A stretch of 64,000 nucleotides of DNA from the NCBI GenBank assembly GCA_002700365.1, contig PADB01000012.1:1-64000 (forward strand), written 5' to 3'. The notes below the pieces were generated by a model. That model was not told where the DNA came from and did not search any database. It worked only from the letters and a program-made list of their open reading frames with translations. Both the position numbers and the translations under genes were made by a program. This DNA comes from Kordiimonas sp. (GTDB taxonomy: Bacteria; Pseudomonadota; Alphaproteobacteria; Sphingomonadales; Emcibacteraceae). Positions 26,115 to 30,760 of the stretch are shown piece after piece; position 1 is the stretch's first letter; the number at the start of each line of letters is the position of its first letter.

Positions 26115-26756
26115 TTACAGTTTGACGGGCATTTCCCCAAATGTCTGTTCAAAACAGCGTATCAGCGCCGTATCAAGGTCATCCATCGTGACGGGAAGGC
26201 CAAGGTCGACGAGTGATGTTACACCAAATTGATCCAGACCACATGGCACGATGCCCTTAAAATGGCCTAAGTCAGGTTCGACATTAATGGAAATTCCATG
26301 GAAACTGACCCACTTGCGCACGCGAACGCCTAAAGCGGCGATTTTATCCTCACGCCCGTTGTCGCGGGCAACCCAGACACCAACGCGTCCATCGCGACGT
26401 TCGCCTACAACATTGAATTCGGCGAGCGTGTCAATAATCCATTGTTCCAGATCACAAACAAATTTGCGGACATCACGACCACGCTTACGCAGGTCGAGCA
26501 TGACATAGACAACGCGCTGACCCGGGCCATGGTATGTGTATTGGCCGCCACGCCCCGCGTCAAAGACAGGGAAGCGATCGGGTTCAAGCAAGTCATTCTG
26601 GTCTGCAGAAGTGCCAGCGGTATATAGCGGGGGGTGTTCAAGCAGCCATAATAGTTCTGCGGCCTGATTATTGCTGATTACTGCAACACGGGCTTCCATT
26701 TCTGCTAAAGCTTGTTCATAGGGGATCAGCCCTGTGCTTGTTTTCCACTCAATCAT
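26115..26756 (-). CDS. lipB: Lipoyl(octanoyl) transferase LipB
   Basis: 213-residue enzyme that transfers octanoate from acyl carrier protein to lipoyl domains. The signature [16 protein letters not shown] (69-84) is present. Catalytic C172 (PCGL) and K138 (KIAALGVR) match the Cys-Lys dyad. Lipoylation activates 2-oxoacid dehydrogenases and the glycine cleavage system. lipA is not nearby. It is transcribed away from the FliN-like gene. Confidence 0.95.
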
Positions 26757-26778
26757 TGCCAGCGCCTATCCCTTGGGC

Positions 26779-26792
26779 ATGATATGCATCAT
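26779..26792. promoter_or_regulatory. Short inverted repeat upstream of lipB
   Basis: ATGAT-ATGC-ATCAT is a perfect 5-bp inverted repeat 22 bases upstream of the lipB start, in the lipB / FliN-like divergent region. An operator role is only a guess. Confidence 0.2.
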
Positions 26793-26879
26793 TTGTGTTT
26801 CTCCGTGACCACAAAAAGAGCCATTCTGTTCTTTAATACGCCCGCATAGCGTAAATCGCTAGTGTTTAAACTGCCCTTT

Positions 26880-27137
26880 ATGTTACAAGGGGGCATGATT
26901 ACACGTGCAATAGAAGATGTCGCCGTTGAATTAACGGTGGTCCTCGGCCAGACGGAAATGCCGATCAGCCAATTATTGAAAATGGGCCGGGGGGCTGTAA
27001 TTGATCTGGATGCGGACCATGATGATCCGGTGATGATTTATGCCAACGGTGAATTAATTGCCAAGGGTGAAATCATTTTATCCGGGGATAAAATCGCAAT
27101 TAACATTACCGAAAGCGTCAAGAGCTACCAGCGATAG
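26880..27137 (+). CDS. FliN-family (SPOA domain) protein
   Basis: About 85 residues consisting of one SPOA (surface presentation of antigens) domain, as in the C-terminal half of flagellar switch protein FliN. Family features are AVELTVVLGQTEMPISQLLK, GAVIDLD and VMIYANGELIAKGEIILSGD. FliN builds the C-ring of the flagellar motor; type III secretion homologues exist. The start is uncertain: GTG 26862, ATG 26880 and ATG 26895 are all in frame. No other flagellar or secretion gene is in the window, so the role here is open. Confidence 0.75.
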   Translation: MLQGGMITRAIEDVAVELTVVLGQTEMPISQLLKMGRGAVIDLDADHDDPVMIYANGELIAKGEIILSGDKIAINITESVKSYQR

Positions 27138-27156
27138 CTTTTTTTTACCCAGAAAC

Positions 27157-27222
27157 AACACTTAATTAGTGTTATTATATAATTTTTACATAATTTCTTG
27201 ATTTTTTAGTGTAAAACACTAA
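27157..27222. promoter_or_regulatory. Paired inverted repeats upstream of the siroheme/APS-reductase operon
   Basis: Two inverted repeats share the half-site AGTGT/ACACT: AACACT-N5-AGTGTT at 27157-27173 and TTAGTGT-N3-ACACTAA at 27206-27222. The AGTGT copies are exactly 40 bases apart, about four helical turns. They lie in a very AT-rich gap 33-98 bases before the operon start. A sulfur-responsive repressor or activator is a plausible binder, but none is identified. Confidence 0.5.
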
Positions 27223-27254
27223 TTTATAGGCTTCTGTCATTAAAGGATGAACCC

Positions 27255-27830
27255 ATGTTGCCATTAATGCTTGATATTGCTAAAGGCAAGATCCTGCTCG
27301 TGGGGAAGGGGGCAGCCTTAAAGCAGCGTTATACTTTGTTGATGCAGGCAGGGGTGACAGATTTAACGATCTATGTACCAGAAGCGGAAGATGCAGCGGT
27401 ATTGTTTGAAGGCGCGGATAAGACGCGGTCGGTCAAAGTACACGTGGGTGTTCCCGGTGATGGTGACGTGGCTGATGCGTTGCTGTTGATGGTCGCGGGA
27501 ATTGATGAGGCGATTGCCGAGCAATTTGCGAGTCTTGCACGGTCACACAACGTGCTCGTGAATGTGGAAGACAACAAACGTCTGTGTGATTTTTATATGC
27601 CGTCATTGGTACGGCGAGGGGATTTGGTTCTGGCCATCTCCACGGGGGGGAAAAGCCCGGGTCTTGCCCGGCGGCTACGGTTGAAGTTGGAAGATATGTT
27701 CGGCCCTGAATGGGAAGCACGATTGGAGCAGATCGCGACATTACGTAAACAGTGGCGGAATGATGGTATTGAGTTAAAGCAGCTTTCCACCAAGACGGAT
27801 GAGCTGATTGATAAGGAAAATTGGTTATGA
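27255..27830 (+). CDS. Precorrin-2 dehydrogenase / sirohydrochlorin ferrochelatase (CysG N-terminal type)
   Basis: 191-residue protein matching the NAD-dependent N-terminal half of CysG and yeast Met8. It oxidises precorrin-2 and inserts iron to make siroheme, the cofactor of sulfite and nitrite reductases. The Rossmann start ILLVGKGAAL, the catalytic-Asp motif NVEDNKRLCDFYMPS and AISTGGKSPGLARRLR are visible. The methyltransferase half is absent, so a separate CobA is needed elsewhere. It overlaps the APS reductase gene by four bases (ATGA). Confidence 0.9.
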   Translation: MLPLMLDIAKGKILLVGKGAALKQRYTLLMQAGVTDLTIYVPEAEDAAVLFEGADKTRSVKVHVGVPGDGDVADALLLMVAGIDEAIAEQFASLARSHNVLVNVEDNKRLCDFYMPSLVRRGDLVLAISTGGKSPGLARRLRLKLEDMFGPEWEARLEQIATLRKQWRNDGIELKQLSTKTDELIDKENWL

Positions 27831-28549
27831 CCGCAGTGCAGGCACAACATGTTCTCAAGACGGAAGACCGTCTGCAGGAGATGACAGAAAAATATGGGCA
27901 GTTTGAGACTCTTGACCTGATTGAGGCGATGGTTAAGCAGGAATTTTCTGGCGAGATTGCCCTGGTGTCGTCTTTTGGGGCGGAAGCTGTTGTGTTGTTG
28001 GACTTGGTCGCACAGGTCGACAAAAACGTGCCAGTTATTTTTATTGATACACGTAAACTGTTTGGTGAAACGTTGCGGTACCGCGATAAGGTTGCCGAAA
28101 CACTGGGGTTGACGAATATCATTTCTGTACAGCCCGATCCGGTCGATGTGGAAGCCGAAGATAAGAACGGTCTGTTGTGGAGTCGCAATGTGGATGCCTG
28201 CTGTGATCTGCGGAAGGTGCGCCCGTTGGCCCGTGCGATGGACCAATATGCCGCATGGTTTACAGGGCGCAAACGGTTCCAAGCGTCAACGCGTGCTAAT
28301 ATTCCATTGATTGAACAGGATGGTAGTAAGTTCAAGATTAACCCATTGGCCCATTGGGATGCAGCCGCGTTGGAAAAACATATGCAGAGCCGTAATCTGC
28401 CGCGACACCCATTGGTTGAGGATGGCTATCCTTCTATTGGGTGTATGCCATGTACGCGACGTGTAGAGCCGGGCGAAGACGCGCGCGCGGGGCGTTGGGC
28501 CGGGATTGAAAAGACGGAATGCGGCATTCATATCGCCGAAAATATTTAA
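27827..28549 (+). CDS. cysH: Assimilatory adenylyl-sulfate (APS) reductase
   Basis: 240-residue reductase of activated sulfate to sulfite. The cysteines typical of the iron-sulfur APS-type enzyme are present: C125-C126 in DACCDLRKVRPL and C206/C209 in GCMPCTRRV, which bind a [4Fe-4S] cluster. The C-terminal KTECGIH holds catalytic C232. These extra cysteines argue for APS rather than PAPS as substrate. Start is ATG 27827, overlapping the siroheme gene. cysI, cysD and cysN are not adjacent. Confidence 0.93.
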   Translation: MTAVQAQHVLKTEDRLQEMTEKYGQFETLDLIEAMVKQEFSGEIALVSSFGAEAVVLLDLVAQVDKNVPVIFIDTRKLFGETLRYRDKVAETLGLTNIISVQPDPVDVEAEDKNGLLWSRNVDACCDLRKVRPLARAMDQYAAWFTGRKRFQASTRANIPLIEQDGSKFKINPLAHWDAAALEKHMQSRNLPRHPLVEDGYPSIGCMPCTRRVEPGEDARAGRWAGIEKTECGIHIAENI

Positions 28550-28566
28550 ATTTTCTGATTATCAGC

Positions 28567-28595
28567 TTGCCAGTTATGGCGGCTTTTGCTATCTG
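28567..28595 (+). promoter_or_regulatory. Candidate promoter of tRNA-Leu
   Basis: TTGCCA (28567-28572) and TATCTG (28590-28595) are 17 bases apart and place a start about five bases before the mature tRNA. The -10 match is moderate. Confidence 0.4.
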
Positions 28596-28606
28596 CTAGC
28601 TCACTT

Positions 28607-28694
28607 GCGGCCGTGGCGGAATTGGTAGACGCGCAGCGTTGAGGTCGCTGTGGGCGAATAGCCCGTGGAAGTTCGAGTCTTCTCGGCCGCACCA
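28607..28694 (+). tRNA. tRNA-Leu (anticodon GAG)
   Basis: The acceptor stem GCGGCCG (28607-28613) pairs with CGGCCGC (28684-28690). The anticodon arm CAGCG-TTGAGGT-CGCTG places anticodon GAG at 28641-28643, reading CUC and CUU. A long variable arm typical of class II tRNAs precedes the T arm GTTCGAGTC. Discriminator A (28691) and an encoded CCA (28692-28694) complete it. Confidence 0.97.
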
Positions 28695-28701
28695 AAATTT
28701 C

Positions 28702-28740
28702 AAAAAGGACGTTCTCTGTTGAAGGGAACGTCCTTTTTTA
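28702..28740 (+). terminator. Intrinsic terminator after tRNA-Leu
   Basis: A perfect 13-base stem, AAAAAGGACGTTC (28702-28714) with GAACGTCCTTTTT (28726-28738), encloses an 11-base loop and ends in a T-run. Confidence 0.9.
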
Positions 28741-28994
28741 TGTCATAGGCGGTGCTGTTTATGAAAAAATATATCTCGCCGACAACTTTGCACGCGGACG
28801 TACAATTGTCATTTGGCCAATTGTCGTATGGCGAGATACTGGGCTAAAGCGCCGGTATTTTGAGATCAATTTTCTAAACAGGAATAGAAGAGAACAGCGT
28901 CATGATTGACATAGCGTGAAGTAGAAAAAACTGTTGTTATGCCCGATTTGCGGCATAATATTTTTAGATATATGCCAGCTGTCAGGGGGACAAT
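28741..28994. other. Non-coding gap with a long imperfect hairpin
   Basis: No convincing gene lies here. TATCTCGCC (28772-28780) is perfectly complementary to GGCGAGATA (28830-28838). The adjoining GACAA (28781-28785) can pair with TTGTC (28821-28825), leaving a four-base bulge. Two CAATTG hexamers lie in the loop. The whole could be a structured RNA, a regulatory site or a small repeat element. The rest of the gap shows nothing recognisable. Confidence 0.35.
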
Positions 28995-29225
28995 ATGAAT
29001 TATTTTATAGATGCCTATCGCAAAAATTACGTCAATTTCTTCGGGGTGGCGGATCGGGCGGAGTTTTGGTGGTTCACCTTGTTTCTTTATATTACGTATT
29101 TTGTGCTGGCACTGGTCGATGCAGTTTTAGGAACGGCCGGGGTACTTTTACGATTATTCGGGGGCATCATTCTGCTTATTTTCGCATGCCTGCCGAGCGT
29201 GAAAATACATAATCAATACACTTAG
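28995..29225 (+). CDS. Small DUF805-like membrane protein, apparently truncated
   Basis: 76 residues. The N-terminal half (YVNFFGVADRAEFWWFTLF) resembles DUF805, inner-membrane proteins of about 110-130 residues. Two hydrophobic segments follow (about 24-44 and 46-65). The family's C-terminal GVRRLHD-type motif is absent; the frame ends soon after LPSVKIHNQ. An AGGGGG ribosome-binding site lies five bases before the ATG, so it may still be translated. It could be a decayed gene; function unknown. Confidence 0.5.
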   Translation: MNYFIDAYRKNYVNFFGVADRAEFWWFTLFLYITYFVLALVDAVLGTAGVLLRLFGGIILLIFACLPSVKIHNQYT

Positions 29226-29365
29226 TAGCAATAGTGTAAGTCTTTTAGCAACGCCGCTATAATTCAGCCAGCCGGGGCGTAGGTGTCGTTATGGGTTGGA
29301 TTTTTTCTTGACCTCATTGTCGATAAAGTTGATACCGATAAAGCATATCAGGACAGGGCAAAGCG

Positions 29366-30760
29366 ATGACGGCACACCAAAATCAGAGCATAGAAGATGA
29401 GCTGACGGGGACACCGGAAAATGTCACGGTAGGACCACGTTTTGTTGCCAAGGTCAAAAAGGCCATTAAAAAAGAAAAAATCCACAAATTACGCGAATTG
29501 GTTTTGCCGCTGCATTCTGCAGACCTCGCAGACCTTATTGAACAGCTCAGCATTCCAAAACGGGAAGAACTCGCCAGGCTGGTCGGAGCAGAGCTGGACC
29601 CGCAGGTTTTTTCTGAATTGGAAGAAAACGCCCGTGACCAGGTGATCGAACAAATGGACACGGCGGATGTGGCACAGGCCCTTTCCCAGATGGAAATGGA
29701 TGATGCTATTAATGTTCTGGAAGATTTAAGCGAGGACAGCCAGCGCAAAATTTTGGATGAAATGCCGGCGGTGCAGCGTAGTTCTGTAGAAGAGGGGCTG
29801 TCTTATCCAGAGGACAGCGCGGGGCGCTTGTTGCAGCGGGGCCTGATTGCCGTGCCGGGGATGTGGACCGTTGGGCAGGTGATAGATTACCTGCGTGATG
29901 AACGTGACTTGCCGGATGAATTTTATGAAATTTATGTTGTGGACCCTAAATATCATCCTGTCGGTACCATTTCATTAAGTCGCCTACTGCGTACCAGTCG
30001 CCCGACAACGGTGCGGGATATTATGGATGATAATCAGAAGGTCGTTCCGGCACATATGGATCAGGAGGAAGTAGCACACCTGTTTCGCCAATATGACTTA
30101 CCTTCTGTAGGGGTTGTTGATGATAACAGTCGCCTGATCGGGATGATTACCATTGATGATGTGGTGGACGTGATTGATGAAGAGGCGGAAGAAGATATTT
30201 TGCGGCTGGCCGGGGTGCAAGATAGCGATTTGGCGGAAACCGTTTTTGAGGCCAGTCGTAAGCGTTTGACATGGTTGATGGTAAACCTTGCTACGGCGTG
30301 TCTGGCGGCGTTTGTAATTAGTGTTTTTGATGCCACTATTCAGGAAATGGTGGCGTTGGCGATATTGATGCCGATTGTGGCAAATCTGGGGGGGAATGCC
30401 GGAACGCAGACCATGACTATTGCTGTGCGGGCATTGGCCACAAAAGAATTAACAGCATCAAACGCACCGCGGCTTGTGAGCCGGGAATTGGCCATTAGCC
30501 TTTTAAATGGCGTCATATTGGCGATTGTGATTGGTCTGGCTGCGGGTATTTGGTTCCATAATATGCCGCTGGGCGGGGTATTATCCCTGGCCCTGATTAT
30601 GAATATGGTTTGTGCAGGGCTATCCGGTATTTTGATCCCTATCACATTAGATAAATTAAAAATTGACCCGGCAATTGCCAGTAGCGTGTTTTTGACGACG
30701 ATAACGGATGTGGTCGGTTTCTTTGCCTTCCTGGGCCTGGGGACAATGTTATTATTGTGA
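29366..30760 (+). CDS. mgtE: Magnesium transporter MgtE
   Basis: 464-residue homodimeric Mg2+ channel. The cytoplasmic N-domain (about 1-140) contains HSADLADLIEQL; two CBS domains follow (about 145-270, with YVVDPKYHPVGTISLSRLL and GMITIDDVVDVIDEEAEED). Five membrane helices (about 295-464) include PIVANLGGNAGTQTMTIAVR, the conserved selectivity region. High Mg2+ closes such channels through the CBS/N-domains. No Mg2+ riboswitch was seen upstream. Confidence 0.95.
   Translation: MTAHQNQSIEDELTGTPENVTVGPRFVAKVKKAIKKEKIHKLRELVLPLHSADLADLIEQLSIPKREELARLVGAELDPQVFSELEENARDQVIEQMDTADVAQALSQMEMDDAINVLEDLSEDSQRKILDEMPAVQRSSVEEGLSYPEDSAGRLLQRGLIAVPGMWTVGQVIDYLRDERDLPDEFYEIYVVDPKYHPVGTISLSRLLRTSRPTTVRDIMDDNQKVVPAHMDQEEVAHLFRQYDLPSVGVVDDNSRLIGMITIDDVVDVIDEEAEEDILRLAGVQDSDLAETVFEASRKRLTWLMVNLATACLAAFVISVFDATIQEMVALAILMPIVANLGGNAGTQTMTIAVRALATKELTASNAPRLVSRELAISLLNGVILAIVIGLAAGIWFHNMPLGGVLSLALIMNMVCAGLSGILIPITLDKLKIDPAIASSVFLTTITDVVGFFAFLGLGTMLLL

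Follow-up and report, generated by a model that had tools for sequence, protein, structure and literature searches.

The sulfate-assimilation genes of this Kordiimonas sp. share a 23-bp dyad, which lies at positions 27169-27191 of the window (the whole 64,000-nucleotide stretch analyzed here) and which is, with near certainty, a conserved operator for the pathway. An Rrf2-family protein, whose gene immediately precedes cysK on contig C5, is quite probably the regulator that reads the dyad, judging from gene order and distribution. Our main reading, to which we give a probability of roughly 70%, is that three operons (cysGH in the window, cysI on contig C4 and cysDN on contig C11, the latter two located by family search) would be held by this Rrf2 repressor with CysK as its O-acetylserine sensor, by analogy with Bacillus CymR.

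Inverted repeats and the 23-bp dyad upstream of cysGH

The initial annotation had described two inverted repeats within 27157-27222, with AGTGT copies 40 bases apart. Both repeats are present at these coordinates and both are perfect; the AGTGT copies start at 27168 and 27208, i.e., exactly 40 bp apart. The two palindromes sit between a short FliN-like gene and the two-gene cysGH operon, and the region contains the following features:

27157-27173: palindrome 1, AACACT-TAATT-AGTGTT, perfect, formed where the third half-site meets the dyad's left arm
27158-27161, + strand: ACAC, the third half-site, separated from the dyad by 7 bp on its upstream side
27169-27191, + strand: 23-bp dyad RTGT-N15-ACAY, GTGTTATTATATAATTTTTACAT, conserved predicted operator, the pattern being matched exactly by the cysI site and the two cysD sites
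27198-27203, + strand: likely -35 element TTGATT, assigned from its presence in 10/10 aligned promoters
27206-27222: palindrome 2, TTAGTGT-AAA-ACACTAA, perfect, in the likely -35/-10 spacer
27221-27226, + strand: AATTTA, a weak likely -10 element 17 bp downstream of the -35 element, assigned by comparison with siblings
27255-27830, + strand: cysG-like gene, siroheme-synthase N-terminal (dehydrogenase) part only (NAD_binding_7, Sirohm_synth_M; cysG_Nterm above cut-off)
27827-28549, + strand: cysH, reductase (PAPS_reduct; NCBIfam PRK02090 and cysH above cut-off)

The cysH product fell below the cut-off of NCBIfam APS_reductase (194.5 vs 235.3), and its CC and CxxC motifs are, we presume, suggestive of the APS type. 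Upstream, the FliN-like gene (26862-27137) is a lone 91-aa gene with a FliN/FliM C-terminal domain between lipB and the cys operon; FliN-like genes hold the equivalent place in relatives. Just past cysH is a tRNA gene (28607-28691).

The palindrome pair is beyond chance. When 27138-27254 was shuffled 2000 times with its dinucleotides preserved, 35% of the shuffles contained one or more palindromes of such size and 6.7% two or more, while two palindromes with at least two G/C per arm appeared in 0.25% and two such palindromes with a common 5-mer in none (0/2000). Across the window, such a pair was found in 2/2130 overlapping 117-nt tiles, both covering the 27157-27222 area. The half-sites are oriented oppositely (ACACT..AGTGT in palindrome 1, AGTGT..ACACT in palindrome 2), and the palindromes therefore do not represent one dyad in duplicate. 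As motifs across the genome, with their spacings kept, they were rejected: each had one perfect copy and no enrichment, the searches giving 47 matches vs 113 for the reversed control with up to two mismatches allowed, and 39 vs 111 with up to three.

For palindrome 2 the odds of a role are about even. That it arose by chance or within the lineage and does nothing, the dyad and palindrome 1 being the functional parts, is compatible with our main reading: palindrome 2 is absent from 9/9 aligned relatives, and its facing half-sites, 3 bp apart, have the wrong spacing for the dyad. Against this, the repetition of the AGTGT half-site is improbable by chance in a promoter, and a protein bound at palindrome 2 would block polymerase. 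The palindrome 2 region scored 4.4 (at 27209) with the matrix described below, second best in the promoter. Palindrome 2 may provide an additional contact peculiar to the lineage, or have no role.

The dyads of the own genome are GTGTTATTATATAATTTTTACAT (window), ATGTAAAATTAGATTTTATACAC (cysI), and ATGTATAATTATTTTTTTAACAT and ATGTACTTTTATAAAAAATACAC (cysD, 6 bp apart). The 23-bp pattern has exactly four matches in 2.4 Mb, at cysGH, at cysI and twice at cysD, a count which shows specificity rather than discovery because the pattern was shaped on these four sites; at up to two mismatches it was no commoner than its control (55 vs 56 matches). The candidate pattern AATTAGTGT-N2-T-N-ATATAA was rejected, its exact match occurring only before cysGH with cysI left unlisted. 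At cysI the parts stand one base closer than in that candidate, and the 23-bp reading was therefore adopted. Related sites precede cysI and cysDN, two of the places where the initial annotation had suggested a search for the motif. Across relatives the dyad geometry is constant: RTGT, 15 bp of A/T-rich sequence and ACAY, 23 bp in all. The window dyad stands at the conserved distance from TTGATT, as in nine relatives. Siblings carry TAAATT at the matching distance from the -35 element; the AATTTA at 27221-27226 was not reported by a consensus promoter scan.

A dimeric regulator bound cooperatively on one face of the helix had been proposed from the repeats. This proposal is in line with the additional half-sites, which stand at a fixed distance, but the unit is the 23-bp dyad with a flanking half-site and not the palindrome pair. 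Among 29 dyads read, 24 are accompanied by a further half-site at a distance of 6-10 bp, against a mean of 2.5 and a maximum of 9 with shuffled flanks, the 6-10 bp range having been picked after viewing the data. It lies upstream at cysGH, cysH and cysD and downstream at cysI; for the second of the own cysD dyads, the arm of the neighbouring dyad serves as flanking half-site. The centre of a second dimer would be ~30 bp from that of the first, close to three helical turns, so that the cooperativity on one face probably stands in this form. The densest cluster seen is upstream of the own cysD (L057, 1243-1312), where two full dyads 6 bp apart are accompanied by an extra half-site.

Distribution of the dyad among related genomes

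A matrix trained on 25 sites from other genomes, with the own genome left out, was used to scan 510,548 own positions (the window, 400 kb of sampled sequence, and own loci including the cys promoters). The ranking was cysI (23.0), cysD (22.2), cysD (19.4), an unrelated position (14.4) and the window site (11.7). The last is the best match of the window and the weakest own member, 5th of 510,548 and below one unrelated position. When a flanking half-site at 6-10 bp was required, the four cys sites took ranks 1st to 4th. The top non-cys match (C3:159057; L212, 19057; 14.4) is ~120 bp before an efflux-adaptor-like gene, with a half-site at 5 bp, which narrowly misses the 6-10 range. Across relatives the cysI sites scored 18-31, 14 of these 16 sites belonging to the training set.

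The genome sample numbered 80, own included, and the regulator was counted as present where a match had at least 61% identity over 151 residues (a partial match in G026 was excluded). For cysI and cysD, 30 upstream loci each were read, matches being present in 60 and 69 genomes, respectively. A strict dyad precedes cysI in 13/16 regulator-bearing genomes (shuffles: mean 0.26, max 2) and in 0/13 without it; in these 13 regulator-free genomes cysI is not first in its operon, and the absence of the dyad there therefore says little. The three regulator-bearing genomes without a strict cysI dyad were G007 and G008, whose sites end in ACAA, and G012, which has an N in the site; G040, with only 27 nt upstream of cysI, was left out of the count. 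Before cysD, the strict dyad was present in 3/13 genomes with the regulator vs 0/17 without. Many sibling cysD sites are degenerate, and their scores (1.4-15.6) overlap those of regulator-free genomes (up to 5.3). None of 26 cysG heads from genomes without the regulator had a strict dyad (the own locus and three from regulator-bearing genomes having been removed from 30 loci; for matches that begin within the gene, the 400 nt include some coding sequence). Moreover, within the own family f1, genus g5 has neither the regulator nor the dyad (4 cysI and 5 cysD regions). Presence and absence follow clades; the related genomes are not independent, and the counts represent few independent events.

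At the position of the window operon, seven siblings carry cysH but lack the cysG-like gene. Four of these cysH genes have a strict dyad before them, and the other three have near matches (CTGT, or an N). Among cysGH heads the strict dyad is present in the window, G046 and G040 and missing in G034, which has the regulator. Upstream of cysGH in G034 (L008, about 1150-1250) is a stretch with GGGTTAGCATCAATAACTACAGAA in tandem repeat. A contig search with alignment returned 18 loci, of which the upstream sequence was read in six; L039, L042, L043 and L044 have no promoter of the window type. Most of the relatives read thus keep the element ahead of cysGH or cysH, so that the motif is neither confined to one promoter nor unconserved, the outcome by which the initial annotation would have been contradicted.

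A candidate Rrf2 regulator beside cysK

Searches of the genome for regulators covered the Rrf2 and LysR families and returned two Rrf2 and six LysR genes, none of them in the window; the earlier statement that no sulfur regulator is encoded nearby holds for these two families. An Rrf2 gene (at least 61% identity) followed by a CysK-like ORF was found in 22/80 genomes, own included; the family-library check of CysK was made for the own CysK. The cysK-linked Rrf2 protein matched PF02082 (E 5.1e-30) and scored 109.8 for rrf2_super, above the cut-off of 73.3. It scored below the NCBIfam equivalogs for CymR (NF047409, 63.7 bits vs 195) and IscR (TIGR02010, 84.5 bits vs 207.55). IscR was its best solved-structure match, and IscR matches it better than CymR does. 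A plasmid search with the Rrf2 protein gave 222 records, all below 60% identity. No dyad was seen near rrf2-cysK itself.

The C-terminal tail of the protein is invariant at its key positions: all 22 orthologues are 151-aa proteins that terminate in F-[T/N/S]-I, with F149 and I151 invariant, while residues 134-147 are more variable than residues 1-133 (mean share of the commonest residue 0.68 vs 0.84). In the eight next homologues (L110-L117) a MoeB-like ORF follows with no cysK between, and the proteins end in A or S. This pattern suggests joint gain or loss of the tail and cysK. According to PMC12895370 and PMC4961446, CysE and a toxin of E. coli are each held in the active site of CysK by an isoleucine at their C-terminus; a tail of this kind has also been noted, or proposed, for CymR (PMC12895370). 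The CysE tail DFSI of M. tuberculosis has been crystallized with CysK1 (2Q3C; PMC9547175). The own tail, DFTI, resembles DFSI, and the own CysK has 2Q3C as its best solved-structure sequence match and keeps TSGNT and QQF. A role of the Rrf2 tail in docking to CysK would follow by analogy from the CysE and CymR passages of PMC12895370.

Several features link the candidate to CymR-CysK of Bacillus subtilis and Staphylococcus aureus: i) membership of the Rrf2 family; ii) cysteine and sulfate genes as targets, predicted ones for the candidate; iii) the link to CysK; iv) a C-terminal isoleucine, as proposed for CymR (PMC12895370). In contrast to CymR, the candidate is alphaproteobacterial, falls below the CymR cut-off, is closer in sequence to IscR, and is encoded by a gene that adjoins cysK; the comparison with CymR covered protein and gene context. 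The candidate differs also from the Fe-S proteins IscR and NsrR, with which it shares the Rrf2 fold family: it misses the IscR cut-off, and Cys131 is the sole cysteine in 19/22 orthologues, the other three having one more at 143 or 76. It presumably lacks the three IscR-type Fe-S ligands, as we take CymR to do. The regulator may therefore work like CymR, by analogy, without being filed as CymR.

Other readers of the dyad and the proposed regulon

It is improbable that another regulator reads the dyad, be it the second Rrf2 protein of the genome (L062, of SUF type, encoded before sufB) or a member of some other family. The L062 protein scored above the cut-off for SUF regulators, 23-bp sites are usable by Rrf2 proteins (that of ScNsrR is 23 bp, according to PMC9338935), and the family search covered Rrf2 and LysR; but no link of L062 to sulfate genes was seen, and the cysK-linked Rrf2 fits the distribution and the pathway better.

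About as improbable is a LysR-type activator that reads the dyad from upstream of the -35 element, as CysB does in E. coli. CysB, which controls the sulfate-assimilation pathway in response to the state of the pathway, differs from the candidate Rrf2 in being a LysR-family activator. The genome has six LysR genes, one of which (L064, beside trxB) we take to be LsrB-like from its position. Palindrome 2 has the T-N11-A form, which we assume to be the LysR motif, and the dyad lies just upstream of the -35 element at cysGH and cysH, a position that alone would also fit an activator. At cysI, on the other hand, a promoter of the form TTGnnn, 16-18 bp, TAnnnn is followed 1-3 nt later by the dyad in 11/16 regions; the dyad there covers the likely start site, and repression is therefore favored. 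In addition, no sulfur gene was seen by eye beside any of the six LysR loci, trxB apart. In Agrobacterium tumefaciens, an alphaproteobacterium as well, the cys genes need LsrB and OxyR for induction after peroxide and no close CysB is present, according to PMC11975290; LsrB and OxyR differ from the candidate Rrf2 in being LysR-family proteins with a redox signal.

That the repeats act as RNA, in an attenuator or leader hairpin, is very improbable: the arms 27164-27173 and 27215-27224 are complementary at 10/10 positions and paired in the predicted fold, but the fold has a z-score of -1.33 with 20/200 shuffles folding equally well, Rfam (26700-29400, up to E 1) matched only the tRNA at 28607-28691, no terminator-like site was found, and the conserved dyad is upstream of the likely promoter while palindrome 2 is not conserved.

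Under the main reading, a repressor made of the cysK-linked Rrf2 protein and CysK, regulation would proceed as follows: i) cysGH, cysI and cysDN would form a sulfate-assimilation regulon with a common operator; ii) a dimer of the Rrf2 protein would bind the 23-bp dyad, and a second dimer would probably bind cooperatively at the flanking half-site; iii) the C-terminal isoleucine tail would sit in the CysK active site, as in the CymR analogy; iv) with plentiful cysteine and sulfide, O-acetylserine would be low and the Rrf2-CysK complex would repress; v) under sulfur shortage, O-acetylserine would rise, displacing the tail and freeing the promoters. In Bacillus, CysK senses the cysteine pool via O-acetylserine and stabilizes CymR on DNA (PMC2940859), and by this analogy we strongly infer that CysK would be the co-sensor here.

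No Rrf2-CysK regulator of sulfate assimilation was found for Alphaproteobacteria in the open-licence literature, subscription papers being mostly outside the search. We consider it somewhat better than an even bet that an alphaproteobacterial lineage has an Rrf2 repressor for which CysK would serve as sensor through a CysE-like tail, by deep common descent or convergence with Bacillus. A previously unassigned repeat is now a predicted operator to which three target operons and one specific candidate regulator can be assigned. Should the tail prove to dock in CysK, the use of CysK as a transcriptional sensor would extend past the Firmicutes.
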